From contig JABWAT010000001.1 of assembly GCA_013360915.1 (NCBI GenBank), positions 69,259 to 133,258 on the forward strand: 64,000 bases of DNA. Reading direction: 5' to 3'. This stretch comes from Bacteroidota bacterium. Its GTDB lineage: Bacteria > Bacteroidota > JABWAT01. Made by a program: the position numbers and the translations under genes. The first letter of the stretch is position 1. Each line of letters opens with the position of its first letter. Positions 3,557-13,605 of this stretch are shown piece after piece. The notes beneath the pieces were generated by a model. The model saw nothing but the letters and a program-made list of their open reading frames with translations, was not told the origin of the DNA and did not search any database.

Positions 3557-5145
3557 TGTTTATAACCCTGAATAATGAATTCGAGCCGTCGTCCACTGGT
3601 TTTCAGGTTCCCCGCCTGCGTGGCAAGCTGCCCCAACTCACCGGTCAGGCGGTCTGCTTCACGATTGATATCCTCCATGTTCCGGGCAATCTGACCCACT
3701 GCCTGCAACTGTTCCTGAGTAGCCCGGGTAATCATTCTGACCGAACCCACGGTTTGCTGATGCTGATCGGTGAGATGTCCGACCAGTTTTTCCAGGTCGT
3801 GCAGACTTTTCGTGCCACGGGTAACCGAATCACCGACATGGGTAAACATCAGCCCGGACTCACGGGTGTGGTCCACAATATCATTCAATTGCTTTCTGAT
3901 CTGTGCCAGGGTTTTTTCGGTTTCCTCTGCCAGTTCCCTGACCTCGCGGGCCACCACCTGAAACCGCTGAACCTGTTTTGCAGATCCAACCGATTCGAGC
4001 TGAGCATTGAATGCAATCAGTTTCAATTCTTCGTTTATTCGGTTCACAACGTCGGCAATACGGTTAATCGCCTCGATTTCAGCGATGTTCTTATCGAGCA
4101 GCTGCCTGAACTGAGAGGACATCTTTTCAATCTCGTCCATCTGGTCAGTGATGGATTTCACCGACCTGTTTGCATCATTCAGCTGTTTCCGGTTTTGGGT
4201 GGATTGCTTTTCGATGATTCCGGCGAGAGAAGAAACCGACTGGGTACTCTGTGTGATCTGTGATGCAGAAGCCGTGATCTCATTGATGGACTGATTCAGA
4301 TCCTGAAATGCTTTTTTCTGACTATTAAGAATATCCCCCATCTGATCGGAGTCCGCTATGAGCTGAGACCCGGTTTCACGGATGGCCCCGGACCAGAGGG
4401 CCTGAAGTTCAACATAATTTCCAATTTCGGTGGCCAGTTCCCTGATAGAAGTAAACCTGGATTTCTTTAACTGATCGAGGTAACGCTGACCGCCACTATC
4501 CAGCGAATGAATAGATCGGTTCAGCATGCCGATCTGATGGATCAACCGGCCGGCGGTCTGCCGGTACCCAACCCATACAGCAGCAGCGATCAGACCATAA
4601 AACAGGAACGATACCCAGACAAACCACCAGAAAAACTGATCATATTCCCCCATCTCCTGAACTGTGATCAATCCGGCAGCAGGCAGGTCTTTAAGGCGTA
4701 GGTTGTTTCGGACCAGGATCAGGGTCTGGCCATTGGGTGTGTGGGTGATGTGCCATGAAATGGTGTCGCCATCGACGGGCACGGTTTTATCCCATGAGAC
4801 CTGATCGGGTAATCCGCGCATTTCTGCCAGTGGTGACCGGATTCTAAGAAAACGGTCCTGATCGGAAAATCCATAAAACGAAACCGGCAATTTGATGCAG
4901 TAGGCATTAAGGGAACGCCTAGTTTCAATCGGAATCACCGCCAGATCGTCGGGCGAATCGGCTTGCCTGAATTCGGCCTGATTGCGAAGGACAAAGGAGG
5001 CCCAGTTCCCGATCCGACCCAGATTGATCACACTTTGCTGAAGATAAATTTGAGAAAAAACCCAGACGGTTAACAGCCACAATCCGGCAGGAACCAGAAT
5101 AAAGGGCAGAACCCGCAAGCTGTTTTTTATAAAACCCTTTGTCAT
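3553..5145 (-). CDS. divergent methyl-accepting chemotaxis-like transducer
   Basis: A 530-aa membrane receptor. The start is taken at the ATG at 5145, which overlaps the metF stop as TAATG; an upstream in-frame ATG at 5238 would lie inside metF. Transmembrane segments are near residues 12-33 and 169-191 with a roughly 130-residue periplasmic region between. A long coiled coil follows. Its hairpin tip (ELKLIAFNAQLE, then FQVVAREVRELAEET) resembles the MCP signalling tip but departs from the usual QTNLLALNAAIEAARAGE. No clear HAMP domain and no che genes are visible. It may signal through something other than a classical CheA array. Confidence 0.75.
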   Translation of the reverse strand: MTKGFIKNSLRVLPFILVPAGLWLLTVWVFSQIYLQQSVINLGRIGNWASFVLRNQAEFRQADSPDDLAVIPIETRRSLNAYCIKLPVSFYGFSDQDRFLRIRSPLAEMRGLPDQVSWDKTVPVDGDTISWHITHTPNGQTLILVRNNLRLKDLPAAGLITVQEMGEYDQFFWWFVWVSFLFYGLIAAAVWVGYRQTAGRLIHQIGMLNRSIHSLDSGGQRYLDQLKKSRFTSIRELATEIGNYVELQALWSGAIRETGSQLIADSDQMGDILNSQKKAFQDLNQSINEITASASQITQSTQSVSSLAGIIEKQSTQNRKQLNDANRSVKSITDQMDEIEKMSSQFRQLLDKNIAEIEAINRIADVVNRINEELKLIAFNAQLESVGSAKQVQRFQVVAREVRELAEETEKTLAQIRKQLNDIVDHTRESGLMFTHVGDSVTRGTKSLHDLEKLVGHLTDQHQQTVGSVRMITRATQEQLQAVGQIARNMEDINREADRLTGELGQLATQAGNLKTSGRRLEFIIQGYKQ

Positions 5146-9551: not shown

Positions 9552-10628
9552 TTAATGCCACTTATACAGACGAAGTCCTATGGCTGCCGTTATCAGCCCG
9601 GTGGCGCTGAGAATGATCAGGGCTGGTATGGAGTCGATTAACCCGGCTCCTTCATTAAACACCGCCCTGATCGAATCGGCCAGGAGGGTGAGAGGCAGGT
9701 ATTGTATGAACGGAATGACGGCTTCCGGAAAGTTATGATAGCTGAAAAAGATACCCGACAGAATCATCATGGGCATCGAAACAGCATTGATGAAACCAAC
9801 CCCGATCCGGGTATTATCGGCGCGGCAGGAAAGCAATATGGCGATTCCTGTGAAGGACAGGTTTCCAACCAGAAACAACAGACCCAAAGCCAGTAATGAT
9901 CCGGTGGGCAGCAGGTCGAAGTAAAGCCAGGCAAACACCATCAGAATAACCACTTCCACCACACTCAATACGATACGTGCCGCCATCAGTGAAATCATGA
10001 ATTCATGCTTTTTCATGGGAGTGGCCAGCATCCTTCTCAGCAACTTTTTCATCCGGTATTCGATCAGACCAAATCCGATTCCCCACAAGGCCGAATTCAT
10101 GATTCCGAAGGCAATCAGACCCGGCACAAGAAAATCAATGTAGCGGGTTCCGATCAGGGTCAGTTCGCGGACGGTAGCCAGTTGTGTGCTGTTGCCTGAA
10201 ATGGCTTCGGTCAGAATGTACCACGAAAGCTGGGCATCCGTCGAGGCCGGATCAAACCGAACAATGGGTTTTCCATCGGGGCCGGGCACCAGATAACTGG
10301 TGATGATACCACGTTTCAGCATCACAATGGCAGAATCCTCGGTTGCGGAAATGAAATGAATCCGCTGTTTGCCCGAAACAGGTGAATCGAACTCCAGAAC
10401 CGACTCACCCCCGGACAGGTAAGTTCCAAGGACTGAGGTGGTATCCCAGTTACCGGGAACCACGGCAATGGTGCGGGAAAGTTCAGGTTTGGAAGTAAAA
10501 GCCACACCCAGAACCCAGGCGATCGCCAGCGGAAAGACCACCGCCCAGAAAATGATTTCGGGTTCTCTGACAAATTCCCTGAACTGTACTTTGATCAGAC
10601 TGATCAGTGACTTTGATATAATTTTCAT
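9552..10628 (-). CDS. ABC-2 type transporter permease
   Basis: A 358-aa permease of the ABC-2 export class. One N-terminal membrane helix (about 25-45) precedes a large extracytoplasmic domain of about 130 residues, then five or six C-terminal helices from about 170 on. The pattern is typical of YhaP/YbhR-like and drug, lipid or antibiotic exporters. The partner ATPase is encoded upstream in the same direction but separated by a 220-bp gap filled with heptad repeats. The SD before its ATG is weak. Substrate is not predictable. Confidence 0.85.
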   Translation of the reverse strand: MKIISKSLISLIKVQFREFVREPEIIFWAVVFPLAIAWVLGVAFTSKPELSRTIAVVPGNWDTTSVLGTYLSGGESVLEFDSPVSGKQRIHFISATEDSAIVMLKRGIITSYLVPGPDGKPIVRFDPASTDAQLSWYILTEAISGNSTQLATVRELTLIGTRYIDFLVPGLIAFGIMNSALWGIGFGLIEYRMKKLLRRMLATPMKKHEFMISLMAARIVLSVVEVVILMVFAWLYFDLLPTGSLLALGLLFLVGNLSFTGIAILLSCRADNTRIGVGFINAVSMPMMILSGIFFSYHNFPEAVIPFIQYLPLTLLADSIRAVFNEGAGLIDSIPALIILSATGLITAAIGLRLYKWH

Positions 10629-10652
10629 TGGATTTTTCTGCTAAATGGTTTT

Positions 10653-10841
10653 ATTGGCTACTGGCTACTGGCTGCTGGCTACTGGCTATTGGCTATTGGC
10701 TGCTTGCTACTGGCTATTGGCTATTGGCTATTGGCTATTGGCTATTGGCTATTGGCTATTGGCTACTGGCAATTGGCTATTGGCTGCTTGCAATTGGCTA
10801 TTGGCTGCTTGCTACTGGCTGCTGGCTATTGGCAACTGGCT
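10653..10841. repeat. tandem heptanucleotide array, 27 units
   Basis: Twenty-seven contiguous 7-bp units run without a break, consensus ATTGGCT on plus (AGCCAAT on minus). The commonest variants are ACTGGCT, GCTGGCT and GCTTGCT. Units 10-16 (10716-10764) are seven perfect ATTGGCT copies; variation concentrates toward both ends. A degenerate 28th unit follows. The array starts eight bases after the ABC ATPase stop and ends 24 bases before the permease start, so it fills the intercistronic region. Because 7 is not a multiple of 3, all three plus frames stay open through it; those ORFs are artefacts. Confidence 0.97.
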
Positions 10842-10848
10842 GCTGCAT

Positions 10849-11772
10849 TTATTCACTCAGATGATGCCCGGTCATTGAGATAAACAGATCATCGAGTGTG
10901 CGTTTGCTGCACTCAAGATCACTCAGTCCAAGTTGATGATTATCATTCAGTTCCATGATCTTTTTAAGAACTGCCATTGTGTCAGTGGTCACCAATTCGG
11001 TGGTTTCTGCGATCTGGTTTACCGATAACACTTTTTCCCCGACCGGTAGCCAGGCCGGCTGAAAGGTTGTGACCGTCCGGAACCGGATGAGTTCCCCGCC
11101 CCCGTGCTCATTCAGCAGTTGGTTCAGAGTTCCGCTGGCGAGGATATCACCTTTATTCATCATGACAATCCGGTCGCAGAGATACTCGGCTTCTTCCATG
11201 TAATGGGTGGTCAGTATGATGGTGGCCTTCCTCGATTTTAACTCCATCAGCAGATCCCAGATTTCGCGGCGGGCGGTTGGATCGAGGCCCGTGGTCGGTT
11301 CATCGAGCAGAAGCAGTTCCGGATCATTAATCAGCGCAAGCCCGATGGCCAGTCGCTGACGCTGCCCGCCGGACAGGTTCACGGTATAGGCCTTCACTTT
11401 TTCCTCAAGCCTGATTTGTGCAAGAATTTCCTTCACCCGTTCAGATCCGATGGAAAAGAAGGAAGCAAACAGATCGAGCGTTTCCCCAACGGTCAGTTTA
11501 TCGATGAAGCGGGTTTCCTGCAAAGAAAGACCAATCCGGCGACGCAGTTCCTGTTCAGCCGTTTGCCAGGTTTTCCCAAAAAGCAGGATACTTCCTGAAT
11601 CGGGTTTCTGAATGCCTTCAATCATTTCGACCAGTGTGGTCTTTCCTGCCCCGTTCGGACCCAGCAAGGCAATAAATTCACCAGCCTGGATGGTCAGGTT
11701 CAGATCCTTGACAGCATGAACATCTTTAAACCGCTTGTTTACCTGCCGGATATCTATCACCGGTTGATTCAT
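10849..11772 (-). CDS. ABC transporter ATP-binding protein (ABC-2 exporter class)
   Basis: A 307-aa ATPase with Walker A GPNGAGKTT near 39-47, the signature LSGGQRQR near 134, Walker B LLLLDEPTTGLD near 155, and a switch His in TTHYMEEAEYL. The C-terminal 80 residues form the extension usual in daunorubicin-type (DrrA) exporters. It energises the permease at 9552-10628. Its ATG lies four bases after the stop of the secreted peptidase gene, so it belongs to an operon led by a rhomboid protease. Confidence 0.93.
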   Translation of the reverse strand: MNQPVIDIRQVNKRFKDVHAVKDLNLTIQAGEFIALLGPNGAGKTTLVEMIEGIQKPDSGSILLFGKTWQTAEQELRRRIGLSLQETRFIDKLTVGETLDLFASFFSIGSERVKEILAQIRLEEKVKAYTVNLSGGQRQRLAIGLALINDPELLLLDEPTTGLDPTARREIWDLLMELKSRKATIILTTHYMEEAEYLCDRIVMMNKGDILASGTLNQLLNEHGGGELIRFRTVTTFQPAWLPVGEKVLSVNQIAETTELVTTDTMAVLKKIMELNDNHQLGLSDLECSKRTLDDLFISMTGHHLSE

Positions 11773-11776
11773 GATC

Positions 11777-12994
11777 TCAGCCTTTTTTGAATTGTGACAG
11801 CATCTGCTTTACGGCATCCTTATGAACGGTAAAGCTCAGCATTTTTAACTTTACAAAGTCTTCCCGGTAGAAATAATAACCGGGTGCCTCTTTATGATTC
11901 CGTGATCCGGCACCCGAATCCTTTATCAGATACCAGAGCTTACCCTCTTTTACAGTTTTTCCTACCAGATGAAGGGCATGGTCGTCGGTGCTGGTCCCAT
12001 TCAGGAACCGGTATTGACGTGCGGATTCATTAATCGATCCGGCCGGCAGGTCAAACTCAGGAACAATGGCAATTCCATCAAAACCATCAATACCAGCCTC
12101 GGACACATCGCCACCGATGGCCAGCGTAAATCCCTGGTCCAGTGCGGAATTGATCAGATTCATAAAATCATTCAGCGGAACGTTGTGATAATCGGCGCTT
12201 CTCCACCAGTTGTCAGGCACTTTATACTCAGCTTTGGTAAAGTAGGGCGCTTCCATGAGGCTCATGAAATCCACATAGTCACCTGGATTCAGTCTCAGAA
12301 CCTGTTTCAGATACTCCTGCGGTGAATAGGATTTATTACCTTCCTTCACAACGGTGGGTGGTTCCCCCAGATGGTGATTCAGAATGGATCTGATTGTTGA
12401 AATCACCCACTCTTCATTCCAGGAGGCACTTGCCTTCACACCCTCAAGGAAAGCTTTGATTTCATCGAACAGCGGACGGTGGTCATGGCACTGCTGACCT
12501 TTTTTCATTCCATCATACAGTTCAGCAGGAATGGCCCCGTACAGGGAAAAAATTCTTGCGACTGCATTGGTTTCACTTCCTTCTCCGATAAAGCTGTTTC
12601 CGCGTTCCCGCACAAACCGGCGGGCCTTTTCAACGTATTCCCAATAAACCGTGTAGAGTTCTGACAGCTTAACCTCACGTCCGGAAATCCGTTTAATTTC
12701 AGATTCATAAAAACTGGTGGTGGCAAAAGACCAGCAGGTTCCAGTAATCCCCTGAGAAATGGGAGCTGTGTGCCAGATGGGTTTGAAATCATTAAACGCA
12801 GGTTTGCTGATGCCGGAGAAATCGGCTTTGAAGATTCTCCTGTTTTCACCTTCCCTTTTCTGAAAGGCGCCAGCAATGGTTTCCAGAGAATCATAGAACC
12901 CTTTTCTGACCGGAACAAACTTTCCGTCCGTTTGTGCAACAAGTGCCTTGCTCGTTAAAATGAGAAGGCACATTAATGAGAAAAAGAACTTCAT
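11777..12994 (-). CDS. secreted C1 (papain/bleomycin-hydrolase-like) cysteine peptidase
   Basis: A 405-aa protein with an N-terminal signal peptide (about 1-20, ending VAQ). The active-site segment is QGITGTCWSFA with Gln81 and nucleophile Cys87; a later DDHALHLVG supplies the His. The third catalytic position, usually Asn in KNSWG, reads KDSGAG here, so Asn is replaced by Asp and the following Trp is lost. This resembles the aminopeptidase C/bleomycin hydrolase branch but is exported. It lies between the rhomboid gene (11 bp) and the ABC ATPase (4 bp). It may process a peptide handled by that transporter. Confidence 0.8.
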   Translation of the reverse strand: MKFFFSLMCLLILTSKALVAQTDGKFVPVRKGFYDSLETIAGAFQKREGENRRIFKADFSGISKPAFNDFKPIWHTAPISQGITGTCWSFATTSFYESEIKRISGREVKLSELYTVYWEYVEKARRFVRERGNSFIGEGSETNAVARIFSLYGAIPAELYDGMKKGQQCHDHRPLFDEIKAFLEGVKASASWNEEWVISTIRSILNHHLGEPPTVVKEGNKSYSPQEYLKQVLRLNPGDYVDFMSLMEAPYFTKAEYKVPDNWWRSADYHNVPLNDFMNLINSALDQGFTLAIGGDVSEAGIDGFDGIAIVPEFDLPAGSINESARQYRFLNGTSTDDHALHLVGKTVKEGKLWYLIKDSGAGSRNHKEAPGYYFYREDFVKLKMLSFTVHKDAVKQMLSQFKKG

Positions 12995-13005
12995 GACACG
13001 CTCCT

Positions 13006-13605
13006 TCAGAAATGCGACAGAAAATGACCAATTACATCGGGAATCAGCACCAACGTGGCAAGAACGCCTCCCAGTGCCCCACCAAGGTGAGCCTCATGGT
13101 TGATCTGACCATATCCCTGCCGGCTGGCATAAATCGACAGACCCGTGTAAAGGATTGCAAAAATCCAGGCAGGAATACCGACCGGAATCAGGAATAAATA
13201 GATGTCTTCCATGGGATAGAAAAGAATAAAAGAAAACAGAACGCCCGAAATGGCACCCGAAGCACCCAGACTGTAATAGCCACTTTCCCGGTGGTGAAAC
13301 CAGATGGTCAGCGCATCACCCACCAGCCACGACACCACGTAAATGACCAGAAAAAATCCAGATCCCACTGTGGATTCAAGGGCAAATGCAAAGAAATAGA
13401 AAGTGATCAGGTTAAATAACAAGTGCGCCCAGTTGGCGTGCAAAAAGGCACTGGTCACCAGACCCTGAAGGTTCTTACCCTGAACAATGGAATACGGGTG
13501 AAGGAGCCCTCTTTCCAGAAAAGCCGGATTTTTAAACAACGCGTACAGGCTCGGAATGGCGATCAGCAGGAGCAGAATAGAAGCAGCAGGATTTGAAGCA
13601 ATCAT
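13006..13605 (-). CDS. rhomboid family intramembrane serine protease
   Basis: A 199-aa membrane protein with about six helices. The catalytic Ser is in GASG (Ser116) and the catalytic His in HLGGALGG (His173); the HxxxxHxxxN-type segment (His56, His61, Asn65) of helix 2 is also present. It should cleave membrane-spanning substrates within the bilayer. It is the first gene of the minus operon leading into the C1 peptidase and ABC genes. Its start at 13605 lies downstream of an ilvD terminator. Confidence 0.88.
   Translation of the reverse strand: MIASNPAASILLLLIAIPSLYALFKNPAFLERGLLHPYSIVQGKNLQGLVTSAFLHANWAHLLFNLITFYFFAFALESTVGSGFFLVIYVVSWLVGDALTIWFHHRESGYYSLGASGAISGVLFSFILFYPMEDIYLFLIPVGIPAWIFAILYTGLSIYASRQGYGQINHEAHLGGALGGVLATLVLIPDVIGHFLSHF

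Follow-up and report, generated by a model that had tools for sequence, protein, structure and literature searches.

The window, a stretch of 64,000 nucleotides, carries on its minus strand four consecutive genes encoding a rhomboid protease (13006..13605), a C1-like peptidase (Peptidase_C1_2; 11777..12994), an ABC transporter ATPase (10849..11772; PF00005), the first of the exporter pair, and an ABC-2 permease (9552..10628; PF01061/PF12698). The two proteases that the initial annotation had placed with the exporter are indeed encoded upstream of it on the same strand. Gaps along the operon measure 11 nt, 4 nt and then 220 nt (10629-10848) between the ATPase and the permease; co-directional genes in the sampled part of the source genome are a median of 7 nt apart. 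The permease reading frame is intact, with 53-54% identity to its sister-genus orthologues, and the earliest start available to it, ATG 10628, precedes the position of the sister-genus start by three codons. No Rfam, tRNA or tmRNA match was found in the 64-kb window, and the ATPase had no match in viral contigs.

The 220-nt gap is largely occupied by a heptanucleotide array of 27 units (10652..10841, minus strand), the one tandem repeat of the window to exceed the detection threshold, for which TRF gives a period of 7, 27.1 copies, 81% matches and 0 indels. Its plus-strand consensus is TATTGGC, transcribed from the minus strand as GCCAATA/GCCAGTA. Lag-7 identity holds at 150 of 182 positions, far above chance as gauged from 100 first-order Markov simulations of the 64-kb window, the best of which reached 77 (mean 67.6). 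A periodicity scan of the array was passed by 7 and its multiples alone. A pure 7-bp array filling the whole gap had been described earlier; the period stands, but the purity does not, with 13 TATTGGC units accompanied by 6 TACTGGC, 3 TGCTTGC, 2 TGCTGGC, 2 AATTGGC and 1 AACTGGC. Nor is the gap filled entirely, since the array covers 190 of its 220 nt. The 7 nt on the ATPase stop side (10842..10848, minus strand) include an ATG straight after the TAA, which opens only a 16-codon reading frame that ends within the array, and the 23 nt on the permease ATG side (10629..10651, minus strand) form a leader without an AGGAGG-like Shine-Dalgarno sequence.

Read on the plus strand, the first part of the array runs TATTGGC, two TACTGGC, TGCTGGC, TACTGGC, two TATTGGC, TGCTTGC, TACTGGC, seven TATTGGC and TACTGGC. 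The remainder is rich in variants and contains the block AATTGGC-TATTGGC-TGCTTGC twice. The seven identical units form a perfect core (10715..10763, minus strand) with variant units on both sides, as had been noticed before, and this core probably arose in the latest expansion. Stepwise slippage combined with segmental duplication leaves just such a combination: a pure core, eroded edges and a three-unit block present twice. The array is the longest seen in the source genome.

Several roles for the array as such were considered. A coding array was rejected because stops interrupt all three sense frames, which also makes an ATPase-permease fusion impossible. A structured sense RNA was likewise rejected, the transcribed strand of the array being unstructured (z +0.95). 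Neither a terminator nor a promoter was found in the array. As a separate observation, the antisense RNA of 10629-10851 (plus strand) is predicted to fold into a regular hairpin of great length (z -6.05), since the repeated UGGCUA can pair with itself with the help of G-U pairs.

The corresponding junction was compared in relatives. Synteny around the operon extends to the three sister-genus genomes (G001-G003), where no array is present and the end of the ATPase gene overlaps the start of the permease gene by 1-4 nt. Their junction reads GAG-GAG-GCC-TGATG or close to it, with a Shine-Dalgarno-like GAGGAGG within the end of the ATPase gene. In the window the ATPase ends in GTGAATAAATG; the start-like codons are kept at the old place, and now run into the array and then a stop. 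The wider comparison comprised 18 records of the homologous operon, namely 15 loci from the genome collection and the three sister-genus loci, with one locus entering twice, as L064 of the collection and as the G001 locus. The two genes overlap or are separated by at most about 19 nt in 17 of the 18 records; for the genome collection the figure is 14 of 15, the exception being a Calditrichaceae operon in which about 380 nt of unrelated, non-repetitive sequence separate the two genes. Since the sister-genus junctions and nearly all other homologous ones overlap or nearly abut without an array, the array at this junction is, on the present comparison, lineage-specific. It probably broke a translationally coupled ATPase/permease junction, with the permease gene itself retained. 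Decay of the permease after the insertion was rejected, as its identity to the sister genus (53%) matches that of the neighbouring genes (61, 57 and 49%).

The heptad is not confined to the exporter. The initial annotation had suggested that changes in array length tune this exporter in particular, and had named beforehand, as a finding that would refute it, the same array at many other genomic sites. A genome-wide search did find such recurrence, with the array's family at 13 or more further sites in the source genome, distributed over about ten contigs, and exporter-specific tuning is left unsupported, with the family at many other sites and in all arrangements of flanking genes (25 co-directional, 11 convergent and 4 divergent family-wide). 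On one strand, the source-genome arrays grade from AATTCAG to AAGCCAG, TAGCCAG and TAGCCAA. They are nearly all intergenic, with a few intragenic ones there and in relatives, as judged from genes called with a simple codon-usage script. A 384-kb sample of the source genome, picked irrespective of arrays and used for the period frequencies, contained two period-7 arrays of at least 4 copies and one other short-period array of that length, with a 6-bp unit. Period-7 CAG matches number 117 in the source genome, against 0 of period 8.

At the level of the phylum, a pattern of five CAG at a spacing of 7 is present in 172 of 395 genomes, and of a common set of 60 genomes, 24 have period-7 CAG arrays and 7 have period-8 ones. 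Many genomes likewise contain matches to a reversed heptad control, an indication that arrays built on other heptads are also widespread; reversing the specific pattern yielded 0 matches in the source genome. The units themselves differ between genomes. The pattern GGCTRYT has 39 matches in the source genome, 0 in G001, 0 in G002 and three in G003 (all in one array). The units of G001-G003 are mostly AAGTCAG, AAGACAG and GGAGTCAG, and those of the distant genome G093 are CAGTTGG and CAGCACT. In the genomes compared, the heptad dialects are thus genome-specific. That unlinked sites have a dialect in common suggests some spread between loci, which speaks against local slippage as the sole process. 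Degenerate CAG-type heptad arrays are therefore common in the phylum, with dialects particular to each genome, and these genomes offer a way to test what makes seven bases the preferred repeat length and by what route arrays at unlinked sites acquire a common dialect.

Further regularities were seen in the placement of the family. Among 41 CAG-type arrays (L052-L059, L116-L118, L128, L165-L190, L062 and the window array at 10652-10841), the nearest gene lies 5' of the CAG strand in 33, often with the stop codon at most about 10 nt away; the binomial p is about 1e-4, for arrays that are not fully independent. In G093 the CAG strand is without polarity (11 of 26), and by eye the AGTGCTG arrays mostly begin beside a gene. 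The 31 CAG-heptad matches of G003 are spread over about six contigs, and all of them fall on the plus strand, with 0 on the minus. Composite intergenic blocks were also observed (L052:680-1240, L052:3400-3950, L116:6820-7300, L118:6780-7320 and L118:11620-12100), in which AATTCAG and TGATTGG heptad arrays are interleaved with the recurring palindromes CCCGGCGAAAGCCGGGAT and CTCTCCGGCGGAGAG, in an order that is similar across sites.

Related arrays change between the sister species. At one orthologous site with alignable flanks, G002 has 12 and G003 has 11 perfect AGAAGTC units; at a second, AGTCAGG in G002 faces mixed AGAAGTC/AGAAGAC/AGAAGGC in G003. Most of the arrays detected in G003 had no counterpart detected in G002. 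These differences show that the family's arrays vary in both length and sequence and that individual arrays appear or disappear. The repeated slippage proposed in the initial annotation is accordingly borne out for these related arrays, by the 12 versus 11 units and by the site with different units; at the window locus itself, the core and the repeated three-unit block fit it. One candidate pair of orthologous arrays between the source genome (L053) and the sister genus (L172) was rejected, for although the neighbouring genes are common to both, the arrays lie in opposite orientation to the shared gene; they are probably independent. In G002, a palindromic insert, TCGAGCGAAGCGAAGATCCCGAACAATTTCGGGGA (L183 near 4029-4260), splits off two further units at the site with 12 perfect units, where the G003 array is continuous, and heptad arrays may be targets of small palindromic elements. 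Short heptad arrays (TTCAGAAGTCAGAAGTCAGGAGTCAG) additionally occur within long reading frames, at corresponding positions of related large proteins encoded in G002 and G003 (L181:1896-1943, L181:3967-4013, L186:4119-4171 and L186:6194-6239).

Taken as a whole, we consider it likely that the window holds a lineage-specific simple-sequence array drawn from a dispersed family, grown by slippage, close to neutral, and uncoupling translation of the permease. A heptad array seeded at the ATPase/permease junction, a non-coding site tolerant of such growth, would have lengthened through replication slippage and segmental duplication. Some 220 nt of untranslated, unstructured mRNA would now separate two formerly translationally coupled cistrons. 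The permease would have to initiate alone at ATG 10628, and its output is probably lower or less tied to that of the ATPase. Uncoupling of permease translation is the most likely consequence and would be a side effect of array growth; we see no sign in the sequence of selection as a switch. The earlier suggestion of an altered ATPase/permease stoichiometry keeps one indirect support, in that the array appears to have broken a junction that overlaps in close relatives, but specific tuning of the exporter has none. Weighing against neutrality, the longest array sits in an otherwise tight operon, where purely neutral growth would less often place it. Set beside its relatives, the locus shows cleanly how an overlapping junction looks before and after the entry of a heptad array, with both proteins still conserved.

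A length-tunable contingency element, in which slippage would alter the number of units and the permease would be translated or read through, relative to the ATPase, to a degree graded by the length of the spacer, is unlikely. It would draw on the position of the array, exactly at the junction that sets stoichiometry, on the length variation of the family between sister species, and on hmw1A/hmw2A, where expression correlates with heptad unit number (PMC2424069, PMC2651432). Family arrays nevertheless occupy many unrelated sites, convergent and divergent gaps included, with nothing to distinguish the window array from them, and a conserved exporter is atypical as a contingency gene. The array is imperfect, no more than 7 identical units following one another, and this should slow slippage; no promoter-like site was found in or beside it when scored by the sigma-70 consensus, which may not suit Bacteroidota. 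It is a shade less probable still that the spacer has been selected for its variable length, turning a coupled exporter pair into one whose ATPase-to-permease ratio would drift with heptad copy number.

A Rho-dependent attenuator, in which unstructured, untranslated RNA with C in excess of G and a YC in most units would load Rho and cut permease transcription, seems very unlikely. The sense RNA has suitable properties, being unstructured and untranslated over about 220 nt, with a C/G ratio of 1.44 and 12.6 YC per 100 nt. This C excess is modest, however, and other family members read AAGTCAG, with G over C, so that it is not a property of the family; moreover, the homologous Calditrichaceae operon has its unrelated spacer at the same place. 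Misassembly of the array's length or presence is the most improbable alternative, for although the genome is a 51-contig draft and short reads struggle with arrays above 150 bp, variant units anchor most of the array around a perfect core of only 49 bp, the flanking genes are both intact and syntenic with the sister genus, and arrays like it turn up in many places across four of the family's genomes.

Preference for a slippage-grown member of a dispersed family also accords with known systems. In the majority of genomes surveyed, heptads are reported to outnumber every other category of longer simple repeat, and they have been linked to polymerase slippage (Mrazek 2007, as relayed in PMC4679880 and PMC4692102). 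In Haemophilus influenzae, more heptads in the hmw1A/hmw2A promoters generally mean less transcript (PMC2424069). The window array resembles these in its position ahead of a gene, where it could affect expression; it differs from those promoter arrays, with their demonstrated length-dependent expression, in being inside an operon, in its imperfect units and in having no promoter found. The TAACTGA direct repeats of Beggiatoaceae, cyanobacteria and some Bacteroidetes (PMC4679880) are similarly intergenic heptanucleotide repeats across the genome, Bacteroidetes included. With 2-6 copies in the main genome they are short, and they lie just upstream of start codons (PMC4679880); the arrays here are degenerate and of greater length, and a stop codon is more often close to where they begin.

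The closest parallel is with the intergenic heptads GGGGA(T/C)T and GGGAATC of Nostoc and Xanthomonas (PMC4692102) and with the cyanobacterial STRRs. In Nostoc, a 26-mer heptad array lies between pecE and pecF (PMC4692102), and an array within an operon is therefore not new. The present family shares with these systems a 7-bp tandem unit, related arrays dispersed over many unlinked, mostly intergenic sites per genome, a genome-specific and imperfect unit, one case within an operon, and length variation between close relatives, the last seen, with sequence differences, at orthologous sites of the sister genus. It is set apart by its phylum and by its unit, NRNYCAG in place of G-run units, and without G-runs there is no obvious G-quadruplex potential. 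The array is not a cyanobacterial STRR in the strict sense, as the closest genome is a Bacteroidetes MAG and the units differ. On its best reading, the window array would belong with the known dispersed intergenic heptad arrays of the cyanobacterial and Xanthomonas kind.
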